Origin: Ignavibacteria bacterium
GTDB taxonomy: Bacteria; Bacteroidota; Ignavibacteria; Tepidaquicellales; Tepidaquicellaceae
Length of the DNA: 64,000 nucleotides
Assembly: GCA_019694675.1 (NCBI GenBank)
Contig: JAIBBK010000012.1
Span: 1 to 64,000, forward strand
Direction: 5' to 3'
This document shows, one piece after another, positions 12,725 to 26,657 of this stretch (positions within the stretch are counted from its first letter, which is position 1; each line of letters opens with the position of its first letter). Made by a program: the position numbers and the translations under genes. The notes beneath the pieces are model-generated. The model was not told the DNA's origin and ran no database searches. It saw nothing but the letters and a program-made list of their open reading frames with translations.

Positions 12725-13051
12725 GGTTTTCGTTTAATTTGCCGACAAAGAAATTTAATGTTTCCTATGCAAAATATAGTAACCGATCGTTTCTTTCAAT
12801 TGAACGGCTGATGATAAATTGGAAATTTTGCCGAATAGTATCTGCCGCATGTACCTTCGTTATCGCCGCTCCGGGCAGGATTACTGAAGCCGGATCTGTA
12901 TGAAGTCGGCACAAAGCATACGCCCTGTGCATTCAGGCCGTTCATGCGGCTCTCAGTATGATCATTGAGTGTGAACGTCCCCGTAACGCAAGGATTCTAC
13001 CTATTGATTAATCAAAATAATAAGCATAAGTTGAATCATATAACCGCAAAA
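12725..13051. other. Divergent intergenic region upstream of the protease-lysin operon
   Basis: 327 bp between the divergent DUF2092 gene and the papain-like peptidase gene. No coding region is supported; a frame open from 12965 has only a TTG start and a non-conserved N-terminus. The left half is AT-rich. No perfect TAnnTTTG element was found. A 12-bp palindrome lies at 13004-13015. Confidence 0.5.
13004..13015. promoter_or_regulatory. Palindrome TTGATTAATCAA, possible operator
   Basis: A perfect 12-bp inverted repeat lies 37 nt ahead of the ATG at 13052, in the 5' region of the peptidase-caspase-lysin gene run. Its position fits a repressor or activator site. No regulator gene is adjacent, so the binding protein is unknown and the match could be chance in AT-rich DNA. 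Confidence 0.3.
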
Positions 13052-15226
13052 ATGGCTAAGAAAAAAGACACAAGAGAAAAGAGCGGGGGGAGATCTTCGA
13101 AGGACTCTTTTCAGTTCAATCTCAATGCGCGACCTGACACTGTTGATTTCCGCGACCTGATGTACATTCCAACCCTGCATGAAGTTCCGCCGGTGATAAC
13201 GCCGGAGGAATACATGCAAAGATCCGGAGGGAATGTCCTGGTTCTTGACCAGGGCAAGGAAGGCGCCTGCACGGGATATGCCCTTGCAACGGTGGCAAAC
13301 TTTCTCCTCCGTTCGAGGAAAGTAATGCCCGATACTGAGCCCGTCAGCCCGAAGATGATCTACCGGTTCGCAAGAAGATATGACGAATGGCCCGGCGAGA
13401 AGTATTCCGGCTCGAGTGCGCGCGGAGCAATGAAGGCGTGGCACAAGCACGGTGTGTGCTCTGACAAGCTTGACAAGTACTGGGACAATATAAAGTCTGC
13501 AGGAGGAAGGGAAGCTGATTACACGACGCTCATTGATGACTCCCGCTCCAGGCCGCTTGGAGCGTACTTCAGAGTTAACCACAAAGACCTTGTTGCAATG
13601 CACAGTGCAATGTCTGAAGTGGGGATACTCTTTGCAACTGCCAGCGTGCACCAGAACTGGCGCAGGCCGGTGAAGAAATATGCCGGGAGGTCAGCAGAAG
13701 GAAAGAATATTTACGAATGCCGGATAGAATTCAACCACAAGGACTTCACTGTCATAGGCGGACACGCATTCTGCATTGTGGCTTACGACCGGGAGGGATT
13801 CTGGGTGCAGAACTCGTGGGGAGAGAAGTGGGGAGACGGCGGCTTTGCAAAGCTCATGTATGACGACTGGCTCATAAACGGAACGGACGTATGGGTTGCT
13901 AGGCTGGGCGCGCCGGTAAGACTAAGTTCGGATGATTCAAGTACATCGGCATATCCTGTTGTTAAGGCTCTTAAGAACGAATCATCATTTTACCAGTTCC
14001 GCTCGCACATCATTAGCCTTGACAACGACGGAATGCTGAAGCAGGAGGGAACATACGGCCACGGGCGCAATTCACTCACGCACATCATCAACGGAATGGA
14101 TGTGACCATCAACACATGGAAGAAGAAATGGAAGAAGCGCAGAATACTGCTTTATGCACACGGCGGACTTGTGAACGAAGACTCCGTGATCCAGAGACTT
14201 TCCGATTACCGGGAAGTGCTTCTCAACAATGAGATTTTCCCCGTGTTCTTCATGTGGCATTCCGACTTCTGGACAACCGTAAAGAACATGCTTGACGATG
14301 CGCTGACAAAGAGGAAGTCGAAGGATATGCCCGGCGGGATAAGGGACTTTATGCTTGACAGGGCTGACGACTTCTTCGAATACATACTCAGAGAGCCCGG
14401 AAAACTTGTATGGAAGGAGATGAAGGAGAATGCAATTGGCGCGGCAGGCAAGGAATCAGGCGGAGCGACAAAGTATCTTGACCTGCTCATGGAGAAGATG
14501 CGGTCAGATCGCTCAAACAGTTACGAAATACATCTGATCGGTCACAGCGCAGGCAGTATTCTTCTGGGGCCTGTGGTCGGTTATCTGAAGAACCGCAATG
14601 TTCCGGTCACTTCCTGCACGCTTTGGGCGCCCGCATGCACGACCGAATTCTTTTTCGAACATTACCACAATGCCGTTGAGTCCGGATTCATACGTGACTT
14701 CAATATCTACACTTTGACAGACATTGCAGAACAAAACGACGAGTGTGCATCTATCTACAATAAGTCACTCCTTTACCTTGTCTCAAATTCATTTGAAGAA
14801 ATGCCGAGAGTGCCGGTCACACTGCCTTACGGAACGCCTCTGCTCGGCATGGAGAAATTTCTCAGCTCAGGGTTCTGGGGAAACAGGGAGAAAAGAAAGG
14901 TAAACAATGAACAGATGAGAGAGCAGTTTGAACTTTGCAGGAAATACGCACTTAAGCTGGAAAAGCTGTTCGCGGCGAAGAACATTGACTGGATAAAGTC
15001 ACCAAGCCAGAAAGAATATTCGAGCGCACAGACTCACGGCGCTTTTGATGATGACAAGAAATGCCTTGAGTCAACGATATCGTTCATACTAAAGAGCGGA
15101 AAAGGAAAGAAAGGATACGGAAGGATGCTTTCCCCGATAGTTCAGATGAGGCCGTCTGCGCTTTCGGTTGAAGAGCGCCTTGACAAGCTCAACAAGCGGC
15201 AGGAAATTCTTAATCTAAAACTCTAA
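13052..15226 (+). CDS. Papain-like C1 peptidase fused to an alpha/beta hydrolase
   Basis: 724 residues from ATG 13052. The N-terminal half (about 30-290) is a C1 peptidase: oxyanion Gln67 and nucleophile Cys73 in DQGKEGACTGYA, His238 in IGGHAFCIVAYD and Asn254 in VQNSWGEKWGDGGF. The C-terminal half (about 360-600) is alpha/beta-hydrolase-like: ILLYAHGGLVNED resembles an oxyanion-hole HGG strand, and Ser499 sits in the nucleophile elbow LIGHSAGS. A conserved acid and His are not obvious. There is no signal peptide; the N-terminus is Lys/Arg-rich and polar. It is the first gene of a run with two caspase-like genes (6 nt to the next). The protease-lipase pairing suggests a degradative effector. 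Substrates are unknown. Confidence 0.85.
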   Translation: MAKKKDTREKSGGRSSKDSFQFNLNARPDTVDFRDLMYIPTLHEVPPVITPEEYMQRSGGNVLVLDQGKEGACTGYALATVANFLLRSRKVMPDTEPVSPKMIYRFARRYDEWPGEKYSGSSARGAMKAWHKHGVCSDKLDKYWDNIKSAGGREADYTTLIDDSRSRPLGAYFRVNHKDLVAMHSAMSEVGILFATASVHQNWRRPVKKYAGRSAEGKNIYECRIEFNHKDFTVIGGHAFCIVAYDREGFWVQNSWGEKWGDGGFAKLMYDDWLINGTDVWVARLGAPVRLSSDDSSTSAYPVVKALKNESSFYQFRSHIISLDNDGMLKQEGTYGHGRNSLTHIINGMDVTINTWKKKWKKRRILLYAHGGLVNEDSVIQRLSDYREVLLNNEIFPVFFMWHSDFWTTVKNMLDDALTKRKSKDMPGGIRDFMLDRADDFFEYILREPGKLVWKEMKENAIGAAGKESGGATKYLDLLMEKMRSDRSNSYEIHLIGHSAGSILLGPVVGYLKNRNVPVTSCTLWAPACTTEFFFEHYHNAVESGFIRDFNIYTLTDIAEQNDECASIYNKSLLYLVSNSFEEMPRVPVTLPYGTPLLGMEKFLSSGFWGNREKRKVNNEQMREQFELCRKYALKLEKLFAAKNIDWIKSPSQKEYSSAQTHGAFDDDKKCLESTISFILKSGKGKKGYGRMLSPIVQMRPSALSVEERLDKLNKRQEILNLKL

Positions 15227-15232
15227 TTCATT

Positions 15233-16090
15233 ATGACAAAGAGACATTCGCTTTCAGTGGGCGTCAACAGAGTTGATCCCAAACAGTATGACGGCCAGTG
15301 GGACGGATTTCTTCCGTGCTGTGAAAAAGATGCACAGGATGTTGACAATCTTCTCAAAGCGGCCGGGTACGATAAGCGCACGCTTCTCAAAACTTCCAAA
15401 GCCACCCGAGCAAGTGTGCTGAAAGCTATAAAGAGCGCATCCAAAGCACTGAAGAAAGGCGACTTGTTTGTAATATATTATTCAGGTCACGGCGGACAGG
15501 TGGCAGATATAAACGGCGATGAGGAGGACGCAGATGATGAAACATGGTGCCTCTATGACGGCCAATTGATTGACGACGAGATCTATTACTCATTCTCTTC
15601 ATTCGCTGAAGGCGTGAGGATACTTATGATCTCGGACAGTTGCCACAGCGGCACGGTTGCCAAGGTTGCGATGCTGAACTCGAGCGAGACCGCTGGTCCC
15701 GTGAAGAAGAAACTTTACAAATTCATGCCCGAGGAAGTTGTAGGGAAGGCATATTTGAAGAAGCGTGAGCTTTATGACAAGATCCAGATGGATGATATCA
15801 TGAAAATATCTAACCCATCCAACAAGGATTACGCACACAACATCAGGGCTTCCGTCAAGCTGATCTCCGGCTGTCAGGATAATCAGTATTCGCAGGCAGG
15901 TGCGATCAACAGCGTATTCACCGCCATGATGTTCAGGGTCTGGAGAAACGGAATGTTCAACGGAAACTATAAGGCATTCCACAGGAAGATAGTTGACCTT
16001 ATGCCGCCGGATCAGACTCCGAATCTTTACGATGTCGGGGCAAAGGACCCTGACTTCAGCATGCAGAAGCCGTTTGCAAATTCAAAGTAA
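15233..16090 (+). CDS. Caspase-family (C14, metacaspase-like) peptidase
   Basis: 285 residues, a single caspase-like domain. The catalytic dyad is His86 in YYSGHGGQV and Cys137 in SDSCHSGTV. The acidic NGDEEDADDETWCLYDG segment between them is typical of metacaspase S1 pockets, which cleave after Arg/Lys. The first 27 residues (MTKRHSLSVGVNRVDPK) begin directly with the first caspase strand, so there is no prodomain or signal peptide. It starts 6 nt after the papain-hydrolase gene and is a close paralogue of the N-terminal domain of the next gene: both place His and Cys at identical positions. Activity appears intact. Its target may be a neighbour's product, which is inference. Confidence 0.93.
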   Translation: MTKRHSLSVGVNRVDPKQYDGQWDGFLPCCEKDAQDVDNLLKAAGYDKRTLLKTSKATRASVLKAIKSASKALKKGDLFVIYYSGHGGQVADINGDEEDADDETWCLYDGQLIDDEIYYSFSSFAEGVRILMISDSCHSGTVAKVAMLNSSETAGPVKKKLYKFMPEEVVGKAYLKKRELYDKIQMDDIMKISNPSNKDYAHNIRASVKLISGCQDNQYSQAGAINSVFTAMMFRVWRNGMFNGNYKAFHRKIVDLMPPDQTPNLYDVGAKDPDFSMQKPFANSK

Positions 16091-16123: not shown

Positions 16124-17851
16124 ATGGGAAAGAAATTTTCACTTAGCGTGGGTCTGAATGCAGTTGACCCGAAAGCATATGACGGAGAATGGGACGGAGC
16201 CCTCGCATGCTGTGAGAAGGACGCGAAGGACATAAACAGGATCGCAGTGTCGCTCGGATACGACAAGACCGAGATGCTTCTGACAAAAAGCGCCACAAGA
16301 AAGAATGTGCTTGCTCTGCTCGGCGCATTTGCCAAAGAGCTTTCGGCGGGAGATTATCTGCTTCTCTATTACTCAGGACACGGAGGGCAGGTTACCGATG
16401 TGAACGGTGACGAAGAAGACGGCGCGGACGAGACCTGGTGCCTCTATGACGGCGAACTGCTTGACGACGAGATCTATGCCTGCCTGTCCGAATTCAAGCC
16501 CGGGGTGAGGGTCTATGTGCTGTCGGATTCGTGCCACAGCGGGACTGTCACAAAAGCAGCCGTGAGAAAATCATTAAAGGATTATCATGAAAGAAGGAAT
16601 CTCATAAAGAGTATGCCTGCGACAGTGGGAATTGAGTCTGAAAGAAGGAGGAAGAAATTCTACAGGAAGATACAAACGGACCTTCTGGCAAAGTCGAAGA
16701 AAGGCAAGGGCACTGTGGCTGAGGGTGCAGTGCTTGATGTTGGAAATTATATGTGGGCCGTGAAAGCTTCCGTCAAACTGCTTTCGGGATGTCAGGACAA
16801 TCAGGAATCGGGCGCATCACCCGATCCGTTTCACAACAGTGATTTCACGGACAGACTGCTCATCACCTGGAACGGCGGAAAGTTCAACAACAATTATGAG
16901 AAGTTTCACAGGAAGATCATCTCACAGATGCCGTCTGATCAGACGCCGAACGTATTTACTCTCGGCCCTGAAGATCCCGAATTCGACAGGCAGTCGCCGT
17001 TCACAAATTCCGAAGCAGGCATCTATTCTGAAGGAAGCACAATCCTGAAGTTTGACGGTGTTAAGCTCATCAAGATCGGCTCGAAAGGTGAGCTTGTAAA
17101 AGTATGGCAGGCATTTCTTAACAAACAGGGATACAACACAGGAACCCCGGACGGAGTGTTTGGCAACAAGACCTTCAAAGCAACCATTCAGTTTCAGAAA
17201 GACAACGGGCTCAAAGCTGACGGCATCGCGGGAGTGAACACTTTCAAAGCCGCGGCAGGTCTCGGATTCAAGTTTCCCGGAGACACAACCTCGCCGCCGT
17301 CTGCCGGAGGAGGCAAGGGGATCTCGAAAGAACAGCTTGCATACATAATGCGAGGAGCAAAGAGCACTGACATTGAAACATTTACGGAGCCGCTGAACAA
17401 GGTCATGGAAAAATATGAGATCAACACTCCCCTAAGGATCGCTCACTTCCTTGCACAGGTTGGCCATGAAAGCGGCAGTCTCAGGTACAAGGAGGAGATT
17501 GCCAGCGGCGCGGCCTACGAAGGAAGGGCCGACCTTGGGAACATTCATCCCGGTGACGGCAGGAAGTTCAAAGGCCACGGGCTTATACAGCTGACAGGCA
17601 GGCATAACCATACTCAATATGCAAACTACGTCGGCGATCCTGACCTTATCATTCATCCGGAAAGGATCGGCCGGGAGCCGCTTCACAGCGCAGGTGCGGC
17701 GGGCTGGTACTGGCTGACCCGAAAGATCAATCCCCTTGCCGATCAGGACAACCTGATCGCAGTCACGAAGAAGGTCAACGGCGGTACCAACGGACTTGAA
17801 GACAGGCGTGGATATCTTGCAAGGGCAAAGAAGATACTTGGACTGAGCTGA
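16124..17851 (+). CDS. Caspase-like peptidase fused to peptidoglycan-binding and GH19 lysin domains
   Basis: 575 residues with three modules. Residues 1-295 are a caspase domain with His86 (YYSGHGGQV) and Cys137 (SDSCHSGTV). Residues ~317-380 are a PG_binding_1 domain (VWQAFLNKQGYNTGTPDGVFG). A Gly/Pro/Ser linker lies near 385-399. Residues ~400-575 are a glycoside hydrolase family 19 domain of the phage-endolysin type, with catalytic Glu449 in HFLAQVGHESGS, a second Glu at 457/458 and the GHGLIQLTGRHN motif. GH19 enzymes cleave chitin or peptidoglycan glycan strands; the adjoining PG-binding domain favours peptidoglycan. No signal peptide is seen. It lies 33 nt after the single-domain caspase. 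Lysin activity gated by caspase processing is an attractive but untested idea. Confidence 0.92.
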   Translation: MGKKFSLSVGLNAVDPKAYDGEWDGALACCEKDAKDINRIAVSLGYDKTEMLLTKSATRKNVLALLGAFAKELSAGDYLLLYYSGHGGQVTDVNGDEEDGADETWCLYDGELLDDEIYACLSEFKPGVRVYVLSDSCHSGTVTKAAVRKSLKDYHERRNLIKSMPATVGIESERRRKKFYRKIQTDLLAKSKKGKGTVAEGAVLDVGNYMWAVKASVKLLSGCQDNQESGASPDPFHNSDFTDRLLITWNGGKFNNNYEKFHRKIISQMPSDQTPNVFTLGPEDPEFDRQSPFTNSEAGIYSEGSTILKFDGVKLIKIGSKGELVKVWQAFLNKQGYNTGTPDGVFGNKTFKATIQFQKDNGLKADGIAGVNTFKAAAGLGFKFPGDTTSPPSAGGGKGISKEQLAYIMRGAKSTDIETFTEPLNKVMEKYEINTPLRIAHFLAQVGHESGSLRYKEEIASGAAYEGRADLGNIHPGDGRKFKGHGLIQLTGRHNHTQYANYVGDPDLIIHPERIGREPLHSAGAAGWYWLTRKINPLADQDNLIAVTKKVNGGTNGLEDRRGYLARAKKILGLS

Positions 17852-17857
17852 AGAGAA

Positions 17858-18436
17858 TTGCGGATCGTAATCATTGGCAACGGCGGATCGGGAAAATCCA
17901 CACTGGCTGACAAGCTTGGGACTGACCTTGGCATACCCGTTCTGCATCTGGATAAGATCACCTGGACCGAAGACTGGGAACGCGTGCCGGAAAATGAGTT
18001 CAGAGATCAGCTCAGTCTTGAGATGCAAAAGCCGGATCTCATTATCGAGGGCTGGTCGTATCATTCAACAATGCTCGACAGGCTCAGATGGGCAGATGCA
18101 GTAATCTATCTGGAGTTTCCGCTTGAGTATTGTCTTCAGAAGGTTGCCCTTCGAAACCGTGAGTTCAACAACAGGGAATATCCTTACGACAACTTCACCG
18201 GAGACCGCGTTGCAATGCAACACATTTACGATGAAGCTGTAAGGCGCGTCCATTCTGATTATGAGCCGCAGGTGAGAGAATGGCTTGGCTTGAAACAATT
18301 TTCGGACAAACCTGTGATCGTTTGCCGCTCCTCTGATGAGCTGAATTCAGCTTATCCGGAGATTCTCCACGCGCTAAAAAGTATTTTGGTTCAGCCGCCT
18401 GATCAAAAAAATGTCAAACCATTTAAACACAAATAA
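17858..18436 (+). CDS. P-loop nucleotide-kinase-like protein (topology-modulation/adenylate-kinase-related)
   Basis: 192 residues with Walker A GNGGSGKS at residues 7-14 and a lid/acceptor pattern (LHLDKITWTEDW, DLIIEGWSYHSTMLDRLRWAD) matching the FlaR/topology-modulation type of small P-loop kinases. The real substrate of this family is poorly known. Translation must begin at TTG 17858: IVIIGNGGSGKS is the standard N-terminus, no ATG lies upstream in frame, and the GAAGAGAA ahead of the codon is a plausible ribosome binding site. It follows the caspase-lysin stop by 6 nt and so is probably co-transcribed with it. Confidence 0.8.
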   Translation: MRIVIIGNGGSGKSTLADKLGTDLGIPVLHLDKITWTEDWERVPENEFRDQLSLEMQKPDLIIEGWSYHSTMLDRLRWADAVIYLEFPLEYCLQKVALRNREFNNREYPYDNFTGDRVAMQHIYDEAVRRVHSDYEPQVREWLGLKQFSDKPVIVCRSSDELNSAYPEILHALKSILVQPPDQKNVKPFKHK

Positions 18437-18437
18437 C

Positions 18438-18911
18438 ATGAAGCATCCGGTCATTGATTCGCTTGAAGATCTAAGGACAAAGCACAAAAAACTTGTCAAT
18501 CCCAATGAGCAGGTAAAGGAAAGCATGTCATCTCTTGACAAGTTTGCACTGAAGATCACCAACAAGGTGGGAAGCATCGGGTTCTTTTTCATCATCCTCA
18601 CCTGGACGATCTGCTGGCTGGGCTGGAACACGCTCGGCCCCAAAGAAATGAGATTTGATCCGTTCCCGGCATTCGTGCTCTGGCTGTTCATCTCCAATAT
18701 GATACAAATTTTCCTTATGCCGCTGATCATGATTGGCCAGAATCTTCAGGCGGAACATTCGGAGATCAGGGCAGAGTCAGACTTCGAGATCAACACTAAG
18801 GCAGAGAAGGAAGTCGAAACCATACTCATGCATCTTGAGAATCAGAATCAGCTGATCCTTGAGATCCTCAAGAAAATCGAAAAGCAGGAAGGCGACACCG
18901 CAAAGACCTGA
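18438..18911 (+). CDS. DUF1003 membrane protein
   Basis: 157 residues from ATG 18438 (an in-frame ATG at 18411 would overlap the preceding gene by 26 nt). A polar N-terminus (~45 residues) is followed by two transmembrane helices (IGFFFIILTWTICWLGWN; FVLWLFISNMIQIFLMPLI) with the DUF1003 signature MIGQNLQAEHSEIRAESDFE, then a C-terminal coiled coil (EKEVETILMHLENQNQLIL). DUF1003 proteins are inner-membrane proteins of unknown function. It begins one base after the kinase stop, at the end of the peptidase-caspase-lysin run. A membrane partner role there is speculative. Confidence 0.85.
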   Translation: MKHPVIDSLEDLRTKHKKLVNPNEQVKESMSSLDKFALKITNKVGSIGFFFIILTWTICWLGWNTLGPKEMRFDPFPAFVLWLFISNMIQIFLMPLIMIGQNLQAEHSEIRAESDFEINTKAEKEVETILMHLENQNQLILEILKKIEKQEGDTAKT

Positions 18912-20786: not shown

Positions 20787-23690
20787 TCACTGTACAAGAA
20801 TATTCTTCACAGGTTCAAGCGTTTCAGTCTTGCTCTTGCCTTTTAGCAAGGAAGACACATCCCGGAGTTCAGTTTCGTAAAGCGATTCCGAGGTTCTGAT
20901 CTCTTCTTCGAGATCAAATATCGTCTTCTTCATCAACTTCATTTTGTGATCATCTCTCAGTGATAGAAACACCGCGAGGCACAATGCAGACTTCTTTTGC
21001 TCGCCTGCAAGTCTGAAAGCGCGTGCAAGGCCGACGATGTTGCACAAATGAAAGAACTCTATCCCGCTTTCCAGGGAGAGCCTTATCGAAGCCGAGAAGT
21101 TACCCGCTGATGCCGAGTATTTCTCCATCATCAGTTGAGCAGTGCCAAGATAATATCTTGCGGCGATAATATGAGCATTGAATCCGTATTCGGATGAAAT
21201 TCTGATGCCGTCGTTCAGATAAGACAGCGCCTTATCATAAATGCCCTGATAAGTGTAAATGCTGCCGAGGTTGATCTTGTTCGCAGCTTCGAGATACCGT
21301 GAACCCACAATTTCGCATATATCGAGACTTTCAATAATGAACTTTACAGCCTCATCATACTTTCCTTCATTCATATAAATGGAACTCAGGCTTGTGAGCA
21401 CGAGCGCCACTCTGTAAGTCTCGCCGTGCTTTCTGTAAATGTCAAGCGCTTCAAGCTTGTACTTCAGCGCACTTTCCCTGTCTCCCATAGCACCGAGCGT
21501 GAATGAAAGGTTGTATCTCGTATTCGCAACCTCTACGTCAGAACCCATTTCTTCAAACAGCCTGATCGCTTCTTTGAAATTCACTTCCGCTTCCTTTACT
21601 GATCCCGGACTCATGTTAAGGACGACTCCCTTCATGTTCAGTGTCCTGGCCATTCCCTCCCTGTTGTTTGAATTGCGAAAAAAGTCATAGCTTACATTGG
21701 CCTTTTTTTCCGCTTCATGAACATTTCCCGATTCATAATCAATAAGGGCAAGTGTGTAGAAGAGGTTTCCTGTCTCATCATCGCTGAGTTCACTTCTCTT
21801 TTCAAGCAATTGATTGCAGATTTCTCTGGCTTCGAAGTGCCTTCCTTTTAACTGCCACAGATCTGTCATGCTTTGCATGATCCTGCATCCAGCGCGGAGA
21901 TCTTCACTGCATGCAAACTTAAGAGCAAGCCTGATATTCTCCCTGTCGGCATCCGCAATCGTCATCCACTCATTCTGAGTCATGCCGTTGTTCCTCCATT
22001 CCCATTGCATTGAAAGACGCTCAAAGTACGTCAGGTGCTTTCTTCTCAAATCCTCGCCGGCCTTTGACACCATTCCTGCATACTGTCTTATAGTCTCAAG
22101 CATGTAGAATCTCTTCCCTGCGGGTGTCTCCTTTGTATTGATAAGGGACTTGTCAACGAGGTTTGTCATAAGGTCGAGCACTTCATATTCATCAAGCTCC
22201 TCACCTGAACATATTGCTTCCGCTGCTTCAAGTGTCCATCCTCCCGAAAAGACCGAAAGCCTTGCGAAGAGCAGTTTCTCCTTCTCATCGAGAAGATCAT
22301 AGCTCCAGTCTATCATCGCCCTCAGAGTCTGCTGTCTCGGCAGAGCGGTCCTGTTTCCTCCCGTGAGAAGCTTGAACCTGTCATCAAGCTTCTTCAGTAT
22401 CATTTCAGGCGATAGAACTTTAAGTCTCACTGCCGCAAGTTCAATTGCAAGCGGAATTCCGTCAAGCTTTATGCAGATATTCTTTATGTGTTCCGCGTTG
22501 CTGTTGTTGATCCTGAATGAAGAGTTGACCGCAAGTGCTCTCTCAATGAACAGCCTTACCGACTCGAATTTCGCAAGGTCTTCCGGTTCATATGCAATGC
22601 CGGGCTCGGGTTGTTGAAGAGAGCTAAGCACGAAGACCGTCTCACCGCTGCATTGAAGCGCTTCTCTGCTTGTTGCAATGATCTTAACACTTGCCGATCT
22701 CCGCAGGATCTTCTCGGCGGCTTCCGAAACATCTTTGATGATGTGCTCACAGTTGTCAATTACGAGAAGAGCATTCTTATCTTTGAGATATTCCAGCACT
22801 GCATCTTCCGCGTTCATTACCTGCATTTCGGTTATCCCGAGCACGCCCGCAATATCATCAAAGAGCAGTGCAGGATCGTTGAGAGATGCAAGTTCTATCA
22901 GCCACACTCCGTTCGGAAATGAATCTATCGAGTCTGCGGCCAACTGAAGTGCGATCCTCGACTTTCCGGTACCGCCCGGGCCAATGACTGTGACCAGTCT
23001 CTCCGCTGACAGGGTCTCTTTCAGATCAATCAGTTCACCGGTCCTTCCTACAAAGCTTGTAAGCTGTACAGGTAGGTTGTTCGGCGTTTCGTCAAGCGTG
23101 AAAATTGGAGGGAAGTCTGATCTGAGGAAATCAGTTTCTGCCTGAAAAAGGACCACGGGTTCAATAAGGTCTTTAAGTCTCCGCTTGCCGAAACTGCGCA
23201 GCCTTATGAGTTTTCCTTCTTTGCTTTTGTCATGGAACGGGAATGAAGTGTACTCTTCATTGTATTCAGGATAGGACCTGACGGCATCTTCAGAGACAAG
23301 GATCTGTCCTCCATGCGCGGCAGACATAACTCTGTTAGTTCTTGCAAGCGTGAGATATCCCATGTAGTCATGCCCGTTCCATTCTGCGTATCCTGAATGT
23401 ATTCCCATTCTCACTTTCATCCTTGCGCCGCCCCAGTCTTCAGCTTCAAGCCTGATCTGAGCGGCTACTGCCGCATTCAGTGCGTCTTCAATCCTGCCGA
23501 ACGAACTGCAGAATGCATCGCCTATGGTCTTGAATGTATGGCCGCCGTTGTCTTTCAGAGCCTGTTCAAGTATTGAATGATGCTTTGAGATCAACTCGCT
23601 GTGACTTTCCCTGAAGGTCTGAGCCAGCATTGTACTGCCTTCAATATCTGTGAACAGGAATGTTACATTGCCTGAAGGAGGATTTTTCAT
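20787..23690 (-). CDS. Class III cyclase domain - STAND-type ATPase - TPR signalling protein (copy 1)
   Basis: 967 residues. Residues ~8-180 are a class III adenylate/guanylate cyclase domain with metal-binding Asp15 (FTDIEGST) and Asp58 (TIGDAFCSSF). The AfsR/MalT-like ATPase region has Walker A GPGGTGKS at 237-244, a Walker B-type LLVIDNCEH, and the downstream GIPLAIELAAVRLK and AMIDWSYDLLDEKEK motifs of NB-ARC/STAND proteins. The last ~350 residues are TPR repeats. There is no DNA-binding domain, unlike AfsR or MalT. It probably senses something through the TPRs and switches the ATPase. Cyclase activity is uncertain because the substrate-specifying and transition-state residues were not verified. 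A tandem paralogue of the same length lies directly upstream. Confidence 0.88.
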   Translation of the reverse strand: MKNPPSGNVTFLFTDIEGSTMLAQTFRESHSELISKHHSILEQALKDNGGHTFKTIGDAFCSSFGRIEDALNAAVAAQIRLEAEDWGGARMKVRMGIHSGYAEWNGHDYMGYLTLARTNRVMSAAHGGQILVSEDAVRSYPEYNEEYTSFPFHDKSKEGKLIRLRSFGKRRLKDLIEPVVLFQAETDFLRSDFPPIFTLDETPNNLPVQLTSFVGRTGELIDLKETLSAERLVTVIGPGGTGKSRIALQLAADSIDSFPNGVWLIELASLNDPALLFDDIAGVLGITEMQVMNAEDAVLEYLKDKNALLVIDNCEHIIKDVSEAAEKILRRSASVKIIATSREALQCSGETVFVLSSLQQPEPGIAYEPEDLAKFESVRLFIERALAVNSSFRINNSNAEHIKNICIKLDGIPLAIELAAVRLKVLSPEMILKKLDDRFKLLTGGNRTALPRQQTLRAMIDWSYDLLDEKEKLLFARLSVFSGGWTLEAAEAICSGEELDEYEVLDLMTNLVDKSLINTKETPAGKRFYMLETIRQYAGMVSKAGEDLRRKHLTYFERLSMQWEWRNNGMTQNEWMTIADADRENIRLALKFACSEDLRAGCRIMQSMTDLWQLKGRHFEAREICNQLLEKRSELSDDETGNLFYTLALIDYESGNVHEAEKKANVSYDFFRNSNNREGMARTLNMKGVVLNMSPGSVKEAEVNFKEAIRLFEEMGSDVEVANTRYNLSFTLGAMGDRESALKYKLEALDIYRKHGETYRVALVLTSLSSIYMNEGKYDEAVKFIIESLDICEIVGSRYLEAANKINLGSIYTYQGIYDKALSYLNDGIRISSEYGFNAHIIAARYYLGTAQLMMEKYSASAGNFSASIRLSLESGIEFFHLCNIVGLARAFRLAGEQKKSALCLAVFLSLRDDHKMKLMKKTIFDLEEEIRTSESLYETELRDVSSLLKGKSKTETLEPVKNILVQ

Positions 23691-23753
23691 GCAGGCATAG
23701 TATTTCCCGCAGGCATTTGATTCAATGCCATTTGGAATGATCTGTGGCTGTGA

Positions 23754-26657
23754 TCAGATACTTCCATCACTGGCGGAGCATAACTCCTGAATTAGCCCGG
23801 GCTTTACCTTCTGCATGGAATGCTGAATAGCGGATTCTGCCTCACTTTCTCCCATAGCTTTGTATAATTCTGACTTCAGTTCACTGAGTTTCAGGTTTGC
23901 AAGTTCAAACATATTGCTGCCTGCTGTATTCGCTTCATAAAGAGCAGCGCCAATCAGTTTACACGAAAGTTGATGATCGCCTCTCTTGCACGCAATATCT
24001 GCAAGTCCGCAAAGAGCCGTAACCGCCGTCTTGGTTTCAGTATTTCCCTTTTCACCCGCAAAAACTCTTGCGTAATGCAACTGTGCTTTCTCCTGATCAC
24101 CGGTCTTCTGATACAGATCCCCGAGACATACATTGACATGGTCTTCTCCAAGCTTAAATCCGGTCTCTTCCGCAAGATTCAGGCACTCGTTGTACTTTTC
24201 GAGCGCTGATTCAATTCTGTTTTGCCTGAAGTCAATCTGCCCCATGTTAACAAGCGAAATGCACAGTCCGTGTTTGTTCCCTGTCTTCAGATCCAGCTCC
24301 ATGCTCTTTCCAAAGAATTCAAACGCTTTCTGCTGTTCACCTTTCCATTCGGCAACTTCGGCAATGTTGTTATACAGTATTCCGAGGTAGTTGTCATCTT
24401 TCAATTCTTCGGCTATTGACAAAGCTTCCTCATAATACTTCATTGCTTCATCGTAATTGCCAAGTTGATTGCAAAGCAATCCAAGTGAATTCAGCGATGA
24501 ACATATACTGATAGGCGATCCGAATTTCCTTTTCATCTCAAGGCTTTGTTCCAGGAACTTCCGGCTGTCGTCGAAATTCCCCAGATCATAGTGCGTCAGC
24601 CCAACCAGATTCAGAGCCTGTGAGAGCCCTGCGGGAATGTCGAGTGTTGTGTAAATCTCTATTGCCTCATTCAGAAAGCCCATTGCCTTTTCATTCGCTC
24701 CGAGTATTGAATGCATTATTCCTGCAAGCTTAAGTGAGTCTGCAAGTGTTTCCGGTTTGAGAACATCCCTTCCTGCAAGAAGCCTTTCGAGCCATGTTGA
24801 AGCTTCAAGCGTATGGCCGCGTATTTCCCAGAACTTGCCGAGTGAACAGGCAAGCCTGCTGCCTTCTTCGAACATGCTGTTGTCAGCAGACCACTTGAGC
24901 GCGGCTTGTATGTTCGGGTATTCTGCTTCGATCGCCGCGAGTCTTTCTCCTGACCTTGGCCCAGTGTAATCACCGATGCCGTCTTCACAGAATTTCAGAA
25001 AATGTTCCAGATGGCTTCGGAAGATGATCTTATCTTCTTCCGCTTCACTGAGCTTCTCTCTTCCGTACTGCCTGATCGTCTCCAGCATGCCGAACCTCTG
25101 TGCCGATTCAGAGAAAGACAAAATGGATTTTTCCGTGAGAGTCTCACAGATGTTGAGCACGTCTTCGGAACTGATGATCCCGTCCGCACAGACCGCTTCG
25201 GCAACTTCAAGCTTCCATCCGCCGTAAAAAACCGAAAGTCTTCTCCACATAATTTTTTCCTCTTCATTCAGGAGGTCATGACTCCAGTCAATCATTGCGC
25301 GGAGGGTCTTTTGTCTCGGCAGTGCGGTCCTGTTCCCGCCCTTTAGAAGGCTGAACCTGTCCTCAAGCCGCTTTCTTGTTTCTGCCAGTGAAAGAAGCTT
25401 GGTCCTCGCGGCGGCAAGCTCAATAGCCAGGGGTATTCCGTCAAGCTGAAAGCAGATCTCCGCAAGGTCTCCGGCATTGCTTTCTGTCAGTCTGAATGCC
25501 GGATTGACAGCCAGGGCACGCTCAATGAATAGTCTGACTGCTTCATAACCTGCAAGTTCCACAGGTGATGGCCTTTCACCCGGGCCGGGGTGGCGGAGCG
25601 AAGAAACTTTGAAAACAAATTCGCCATAACATCTGAGAGACTCCCGGCTGGTTCCGAGTATCTTCACCTTTTCTGATCCTTTCAGGATCGCCTCAACTGC
25701 AGTGGAAACTGTTTCAATAATATGCTCGCAGTTGTCGAAGATGATCAGCGCTTCCTTGTCCTTCAGGAACTTCAGCAGTGCATCTGCCGGGGAGTTACCG
25801 TAATCATCGGACACCTTAAGGGTTGAAAGCACGGTTTCCCCGAATAGCGTCGCGTCGGAGACAGGAGCCAGGTCAACGAGCCATATGCCGTTTGGAAAAT
25901 TATCTATCAATTCCGCAGCCGCCTGCAGAGCCAGTCGTGTCTTTCCCGTACCTCCCGGACCGAGAAGAGTTACGAGCCTTTTCTCGCCAATCAACTGCTT
26001 CAGTTCCTCAAGTTCTTTTGATCTTCCTATGAAGCTTGTGAGCTGTATCGGCAGGTTGTTCGGATTCAGGTCCAGCGTCTTCAGAGGAGGGAACTCTTCT
26101 TCCATGCCATCGGCAGTTATCTGAAAAAGTGTGACCGGCTCCACAAGGTCCTTAAGCCTGCACACACCAAGCCGCCTGAAGCCTGTTCCCTGACAGGATA
26201 CGTCTCTCTCATCAGCAGACGGGGCCATGCCTTCTTCATCATATCCGAGTGCATCAGCAGAGATAACCACCTGTCCTCCGTTTGCCGCAGACATGATCCT
26301 GTTCGTCCTTGCGAGTGTGAGATATCCCATATAGTCACTTCCGTTCCATTCTGCCAAACCCGAGTGTATTCCCATTCTCACTTTCAGTCTTGCCGGGCCC
26401 CAGTCATACTTGTGCAACTCCCTCTGTGCCCGCACGGCTGCATTTACCGCACCAGCGAGAGTGCTGAATGCGGAACAGAATGCATCGCCGACAATTTTGA
26501 AAACGTGGCCGCCGGCCGATTCAAATGACCTTTTGAGTATTGTATTATGTACATCGAGCAGGTCGTGAAGCTTCTCGCTATGCTCCTGTGCAAGCTTTGT
26601 ACTGCCTTCTATATCTGTGAACAGGAAATATACATTTCCGCCGGAAGGTATTGTCAT
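23754..26657 (-). CDS. Class III cyclase domain - STAND-type ATPase - TPR signalling protein (copy 2)
   Basis: 967 residues, collinear with its downstream neighbour. Cyclase domain with Asp15 (FTDIEGST) and Asp58 (KIVGDAFCSAF); ATPase with Walker A GPGGTGKT at 233-240, Walker B-like ALIIFDNCEH and GIPLAIELAAARTK; C-terminal TPRs with clear units (LNLVGLTHYDLGNFDDSRKF, LNSLGLLCNQLGNYDEAMKY). The two copies are well conserved in the cyclase and ATPase parts and diverge strongly in the TPR half, which points to different partners or stimuli. The gap between them is 63 nt, so they may be co-transcribed from upstream of 26657. The cyclase domain's product is not predictable by eye. Confidence 0.88.
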   Translation of the reverse strand: MTIPSGGNVYFLFTDIEGSTKLAQEHSEKLHDLLDVHNTILKRSFESAGGHVFKIVGDAFCSAFSTLAGAVNAAVRAQRELHKYDWGPARLKVRMGIHSGLAEWNGSDYMGYLTLARTNRIMSAANGGQVVISADALGYDEEGMAPSADERDVSCQGTGFRRLGVCRLKDLVEPVTLFQITADGMEEEFPPLKTLDLNPNNLPIQLTSFIGRSKELEELKQLIGEKRLVTLLGPGGTGKTRLALQAAAELIDNFPNGIWLVDLAPVSDATLFGETVLSTLKVSDDYGNSPADALLKFLKDKEALIIFDNCEHIIETVSTAVEAILKGSEKVKILGTSRESLRCYGEFVFKVSSLRHPGPGERPSPVELAGYEAVRLFIERALAVNPAFRLTESNAGDLAEICFQLDGIPLAIELAAARTKLLSLAETRKRLEDRFSLLKGGNRTALPRQKTLRAMIDWSHDLLNEEEKIMWRRLSVFYGGWKLEVAEAVCADGIISSEDVLNICETLTEKSILSFSESAQRFGMLETIRQYGREKLSEAEEDKIIFRSHLEHFLKFCEDGIGDYTGPRSGERLAAIEAEYPNIQAALKWSADNSMFEEGSRLACSLGKFWEIRGHTLEASTWLERLLAGRDVLKPETLADSLKLAGIMHSILGANEKAMGFLNEAIEIYTTLDIPAGLSQALNLVGLTHYDLGNFDDSRKFLEQSLEMKRKFGSPISICSSLNSLGLLCNQLGNYDEAMKYYEEALSIAEELKDDNYLGILYNNIAEVAEWKGEQQKAFEFFGKSMELDLKTGNKHGLCISLVNMGQIDFRQNRIESALEKYNECLNLAEETGFKLGEDHVNVCLGDLYQKTGDQEKAQLHYARVFAGEKGNTETKTAVTALCGLADIACKRGDHQLSCKLIGAALYEANTAGSNMFELANLKLSELKSELYKAMGESEAESAIQHSMQKVKPGLIQELCSASDGSI

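Follow-up and report, generated by a model that had tools for sequence, protein, structure and literature searches.

In a study published in 2012 (Asplund-Samuelsson et al., PMC3501461), metacaspases are reported together with an Amidase_2 domain in four sequences, one of which also carries a GDSL lipase, and together with a peptidoglycan (PG)-binding domain in 11 sequences. The amidase–GDSL lipase metacaspase was termed a “highly destructive weapon” there, the metacaspase operon of Geobacter sulfurreducens was described as including an amidase gene, and GH19 is not mentioned in the main text. Kaur et al. 2020 (PMC7159879) describe VMAP systems, in which caspases always adjoin alpha/beta-hydrolases, and propose that EACC1-caspases may deploy their C-terminal domains through autoproteolysis. 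PG-binding and GH19 domains are also combined in single proteins by phage lysins.

The window, which is the whole stretch of 64,000 nucleotides analysed here, lies on contig JAIBBK010000012.1 of an Ignavibacteria bacterium. It encodes a protein of 575 aa (gene 3) in which an orthocaspase, a PG_binding_1 domain and a GH19 lysin are fused. Gene 3 is the third gene of a tight same-strand operon with gaps of 6 nt and 33 nt. The features of the operon are as follows.

12965..15226, + strand: gene 1, 753 aa if read from TTG 12965; the start is more likely ATG 13052
15233..16090, + strand: gene 2, 285 aa, free-standing orthocaspase with intact dyad (Pfam Peptidase_C14, 9.7e-19)
16124..17851, + strand: gene 3, 575 aa, orthocaspase–PG_binding_1–GH19 lysin fusion
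16124..17011, + strand: caspase (C14) domain of gene 3, GSU0716 type, residues 1-296 (3BIJ, 5.6e-72 over residues 2-296)
16379..16381, + strand: codon of predicted catalytic His86 (SGHGG), from the sequence
16532..16534, + strand: codon of predicted catalytic Cys137 (DSCHSG), from the sequence
17012..17068, + strand: linker 1, residues 297-315 (pLDDT <50 for most of 299-315)
17069..17257, + strand: PG_binding_1 domain, residues about 316-378 (Pfam)
17258..17320, + strand: linker 2, Gly/Pro/Ser-rich, PGDTTSPPSAGGGKG, residues 379-399 (from the sequence and low pLDDT)
17321..17848, + strand: GH19 endolysin domain, residues 400-575, with Glu449 and Glu458 (9MS7, PHROG 181)

An earlier sequence-only reading of this DNA had placed a single protein at 16124-17851 and divided it into a caspase-like protease, a PG-binding domain and a GH19 endolysin. 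The limits are exact, the open reading frame list giving one uninterrupted frame with an ATG start, and the three domains are recovered by Pfam, PHROG and PDB matches. Peptidase_C14 covers residues 19-276 (E 3e-15, above the cut-off) and PG_binding_1 residues 322-376 (E 4.4e-15). The Glyco_hydro_19 match at residues 447-536 (E 4e-5, 24.1 bits) is slightly below the cut-off of 25.5 bits; the GH19 call is nevertheless secure, because residues 323-573 match the endolysin family PHROG 181 (2.5e-56) and residues 400-572 match PDB 9MS7 (4.3e-46). The motifs SGHGG and DSCHSG are both found, so that His86 and Cys137 are intact as had been claimed, and so is Glu449, for the Glu of GHESG falls in the same column as that of other GH19 lysins. 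In the printed alignment, this column reads Gln in 9HNU_B, whose chain is nearly identical to 9HQW elsewhere. The second acidic residue, Glu458, is conserved among the aligned lysins. Many homologues with dead residues would have spoken against the earlier reading; instead, the His–Cys dyad is kept in 82 of the 82 sampled open reading frames of this caspase family, the window gene itself counted. The Gly/Pro/Ser linker that had been noticed at about residues 385-399 is real and lies between the PG-binding and lysin parts, and a further linker at about 297-315 parts the caspase from the PG-binding domain. The caspase also contains a flexible inter-subunit loop rich in Lys (about residues 140-206), part of which has pLDDT <50.

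The AlphaFold (AF2) model of gene 3, built from 40 aligned sequences, has a mean pLDDT of 80, and values in the two catalytic cores, caspase and GH19, are mostly >90. Low values are found in the linkers (299-315 and about 380-390), and the PG-binding domain is poorly modelled, as no aligned sequence other than the query extends over it. Foldseek against the PDB gave GSU0716 of G. sulfurreducens (3BIJ, TMt 0.84-0.85) and the PWe2 endolysin (9MS7, TMt 0.90) as top matches, and then GH19 endolysins and metacaspases. Structure prediction had been proposed as a check on whether the two active sites form, and both folds are predicted well. With these folds and with the catalytic sites intact, both activities are plausible in one polypeptide, as the earlier reading held. 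The predicted p20 fold, H86/C137 and the Pfam match above cut-off place the N-terminal part among the C14 orthocaspases, and the predicted fold with its Glu pair (E449, E458) places the C-terminal part among the GH19 endolysins. By family membership, gene 3 would be expected to cleave after Arg/Lys. The fusion is real and most likely functional.

Comparison with described systems shows which parts are familiar. In a structural alignment, GSU0716 has 43-44% identity to residues 2-296 of gene 3 and has the same fold and His/Cys dyad, but it stops after the caspase domain, whereas gene 3 continues for about 280 residues with PG_binding_1 and GH19. The fusions of 2012 (PMC3501461) resemble gene 3 in having a caspase-like protease and a peptidoglycan hydrolase in a single chain; their wall enzyme is an amidase, whereas gene 3 carries a GH19 glycosidase/lysin that comes with a PG-binding domain of its own. 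With a predicted caspase and a predicted wall-hydrolase domain in one protein, gene 3 is a metacaspase–peptidoglycan hydrolase fusion. The two-gene EACC1-caspase systems likewise have an N-terminal caspase and a variable C-terminal domain. Membership of gene 3 in EACC1 was rejected, its caspase scoring 25.4 bits against NF047832 (cut-off 140), and no match to the EACC1 single-TM gene was found among the scanned neighbours. The lysin half (residues 400-572) resembles GH19 phage endolysins such as that of PWe2 (TMt 0.90 to 9MS7) and mycobacteriophage lysin A. Gene 3 differs from these in being fused to a caspase and in lying outside a prophage setting, with no holin-like gene in the operon. A prophage lysis gene was rejected, the annotated neighbours being of cellular type with no phage gene recognised among them. 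Cargo of a T6SS or of an eCIS/tailocin was also rejected, there being no match to VipB or to Phage_sheath_1 in the genome (assembly about 92% complete).

The operon, which the sequence-only reading did not take in, points to the most likely meaning of the fusion. The N-terminal half of gene 1 is a papain-like C1A protease with Gln96, Cys102, His267 and Asn283, and these predicted catalytic residues are invariant in alignment A3. The match to Pfam Peptidase_C1 falls just under the cut-off and is joined by PHROG 16701 (peptidase) and PDB 3OIS (7.8e-14). The C-terminal half is alpha/beta-hydrolase-like, with an HGGLV motif and GHSAG (Ser528); lipid-hydrolase activity would be a guess from GHSAG. 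The model of gene 1 reaches a pLDDT of only 55, and in it Foldseek recognises the papain family, the lipase match being weak. Gene 2 has 51% identity to the caspase half of gene 3, and in a maximum-likelihood tree the two caspases are sister paralogues (support 100/99). Gene 3 would therefore most simply have arisen by tandem duplication of the caspase gene, after which the copy presumably captured a PG_binding-GH19 gene. GC3 is uniform (0.585-0.608) over genes 1-3, with no difference between the two halves of gene 3; this speaks against a chimeric contig, short of proof. Hydropathy prediction gave no signal peptide or TM helix in genes 1, 2 or 3. No gene of the operon could be assigned as its sensor or trigger, and a promoter/terminator scan yielded nothing useful. 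A P-loop kinase-like gene begins 6 nt after the fusion and is followed by a gene for a DUF1003 membrane protein (window 17858-18911). The two form a possible tail of the operon, although the kinase has a lower GC3 (0.52); the DUF1003 protein, encoded at 18411, has hydrophobic segments and a putative link to the operon.

The architecture had been called unfamiliar. This stands for the exact three-domain order, which was found only in this genome, and fails for the kind of fusion, which was published in 2012 and also occurs in the same class. The caspase-PG_binding-GH19 fusion was not found in phages, plasmids or IMG/VR, nor among the best 80 matches listed in a genome_contigs pattern scan, nor in overlapping genome sets (about 1,190 genome searches, several of them at E 1e-20, so that the absence is bounded by sensitivity). 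Caspases of the GSU0716 type occur in many phyla and, among the same best 80 matches, almost always end at the caspase domain. One genome of the same family and one of the same order contain stand-alone PG_binding-GH19 proteins with 52-56% identity. In the former, their genes lie in two similar clusters (L135, L136) with a protein bearing HGIT and HSAG motifs and further PG_binding genes, one of which encodes an M15 peptidase. Gene 3 is thus a new domain combination within an already described class of caspase–wall-hydrolase fusions. Other loci seen in these searches include a small membrane-like protein in L136 that resembles one near the caspase of L004, and a 547-aa caspase in a genome from a Nitrospirota sample (L221 616-2259) whose C-terminal extension consists of two similar repeats of unassigned type. 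Two IMG/VR contigs (L112 6001-6816 and L111 6001-6792) carry GSU0716-type caspases with 44% identity, and that of L112 directly follows terminase and portal-like genes, which indicates that phages carry such caspases too.

Related enzymes recur around these caspases. At least one lies within 1.5 kb at 35 of 79 caspase loci, and all 64 of 64 assignments are on the caspase strand. Six wall hydrolases were counted in the 228 kb within 1.5 kb of a caspase, against none in 811 kb further away, a count that is suggestive and partly circular, since genes close to the caspases supplied the search seeds. A seed taken from the amidase of L085 nevertheless found the amidases of four other loci near the caspase and none far from it. 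Amidase_2 stands beside the caspase at five Burkholderiales loci (L085, L093, L104, L105, L110), and in this order giant alpha/beta-hydrolase-CHAT-TPR proteins also surround caspase genes. Papain-like proteases lie near caspases at L055, L059, L066, L073 and L079 and in rhizobia; at L066 (Nitrospirae), papain, caspase and GH46-PG_binding genes stand in a row. In rhizobia, a gene-1-like protein is paired with an SGNH-hydrolase-caspase fusion. Two proteins from two genomes of the same class as the window's genome (L139 5156-7945 and L140 7832-10657) bring together Amidase_2, the hydrolase half of gene 1 and a caspase; the Amidase_2 match of L139 is above the Pfam cut-off, and L140 was recognised by homology to L139. 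The C-terminal half of gene 1 is homologous to the middle of these fusions, with HGGLV and GHSAG conserved. They hold the same three predicted activities as the operon. They differ from it in having all three in one chain with the amidase N-terminal, and in a caspase from a more distant subgroup than that of gene 3. That this caspase type recurs with papain-like proteases, alpha/beta or SGNH hydrolases and wall hydrolases in several phyla points to a common set of tools for lysis at several layers, not to a one-off. L139 has an astacin-like gene upstream and a pYEATS-domain gene downstream. A papain-like protease of the subfamily found beside caspases elsewhere forms a two-gene unit with a GH19 lysin at L144 6473-8035, L145 6502-8154 and L146 5413-7063, in genomes that a BchL-like neighbour marks as probably Chlorobium-like.

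Our preferred reading, to which we give somewhat less than an even chance, is that the three genes form a cytosolic cassette for lysis, in suicide or conflict, with gene 3 as the part that cuts the wall. In its favour, the genes are adjacent, none of the predicted catalytic residues is missing, and hydropathy shows no signal peptide or TM helix. Support also comes from the operon gaps, the uniform GC3, the predicted folds of gene 3, the fusions of L139/L140, the arrangements in rhizobia, L066 and Burkholderiales, the enzyme counts around the 79 loci, the published pairings with amidases, lipases and hydrolases, and the lack of matches to VipB or a phage-type sheath in the genome. In such a cassette, some trigger would activate the two paralogous caspases, which would cut after Arg/Lys, as metacaspases do, in the flexible Lys-rich inter-subunit loop. 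They might also cut the linkers and free the PG-binding GH19 part. The esterase-like half of gene 1 and the proteases would damage membrane and cytosol, which would give the freed lysin access to the wall from the cytosolic side and lead to lysis. The weakest point is the passage of the lysin across the inner membrane to the wall. The earlier reading had suggested that the protease could free or activate the lysin. It is plausible that autoproteolysis would release it, which matches the proposal for EACC1-caspases (PMC7159879) and would fit the flexible Lys-rich loop (about 140-206) and the two flexible linkers. The stricter version, an inactive cytosolic fusion whose lysin is freed only when its own or the neighbouring paralogous caspase is activated, seems to us doubtful at present. 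If true, activation of a caspase would lead straight to destruction of the wall and lytic death; the logic would parallel that of caspase-gasdermin lysis, in a bacterium and with peptidoglycan as the target. Prediction of cleavage sites in the linkers was dropped, as Lys/Arg are too common and Lys also occurs in the linkers of stand-alone lysins. With a protease and a wall-cutting enzyme in cis and an esterase-like protein in the operon, the link between orthocaspases and lysis becomes directly testable. The value added here is the operon together with the cross-phylum pattern.

The fusion could instead be an exported weapon or scavenging enzyme, secreted or injected to attack the walls of competitors or prey, with the caspase part as a second toxin or as a means of activation after delivery. 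Multi-hydrolase fusions are a hallmark of delivered effectors, a secreted enzyme would benefit from a PG-binding domain, and the GH19-like matches include TseP (8XCL), a T6SS effector that has both amidase and lysozyme activity. We nevertheless consider export unlikely, for hydropathy gives gene 3 no signal peptide or TM helix, its chain ends in the lysin and Pfam shows no T9SS sorting domain, and neither VipB nor a phage-type sheath was found in the assembly (about 92% complete). A reversal of roles is less probable again: the PG-binding-GH19 half would act as a sensor that detects peptidoglycan, or the lysis step of an invading phage, and switches on the caspase as effector. A PG_binding_1 domain is able to bind without cutting, which suits a sensor, but the GH19 catalytic Glu pair is retained, unlike in a worn-down sensor, and unrelated wall hydrolases (Amidase_2, GH46, GH19) fill the equivalent role elsewhere. 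The sensor reading also draws on the proposal that the variable C-terminal domains of EACC2-caspase systems are sensory (PMC8195603).

A neutral or recent accident, in which a duplicated caspase gene came to read into an acquired lysin gene with no joint function, appears to us about as improbable as the sensor. The exact fusion is present in one genome only, the caspase halves are sister paralogues, and stand-alone PG_binding-GH19 proteins (52-56% identity) exist in related genomes, all of which would fit an accident. However, pairings and fusions of caspases with wall hydrolases recur independently, and both the frame and the two active sites of gene 3 are preserved. Joining of two separate genes by the assembler is very improbable: the sequence does come from a single draft assembly of 104 contigs, but the junction is in frame, the linker is sensible and GC3 is uniform on both sides.

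On the minus strand of the window at 20787-26657, two adjoining proteins of 967 aa were read by eye as nucleotide cyclase, STAND-type ATPase and TPR regulators. The third caspase of the genome, a caspase-TPR protein, lies on another contig (L156 1-3237) and adjoins a gene that was read from its sequence as patatin-like.
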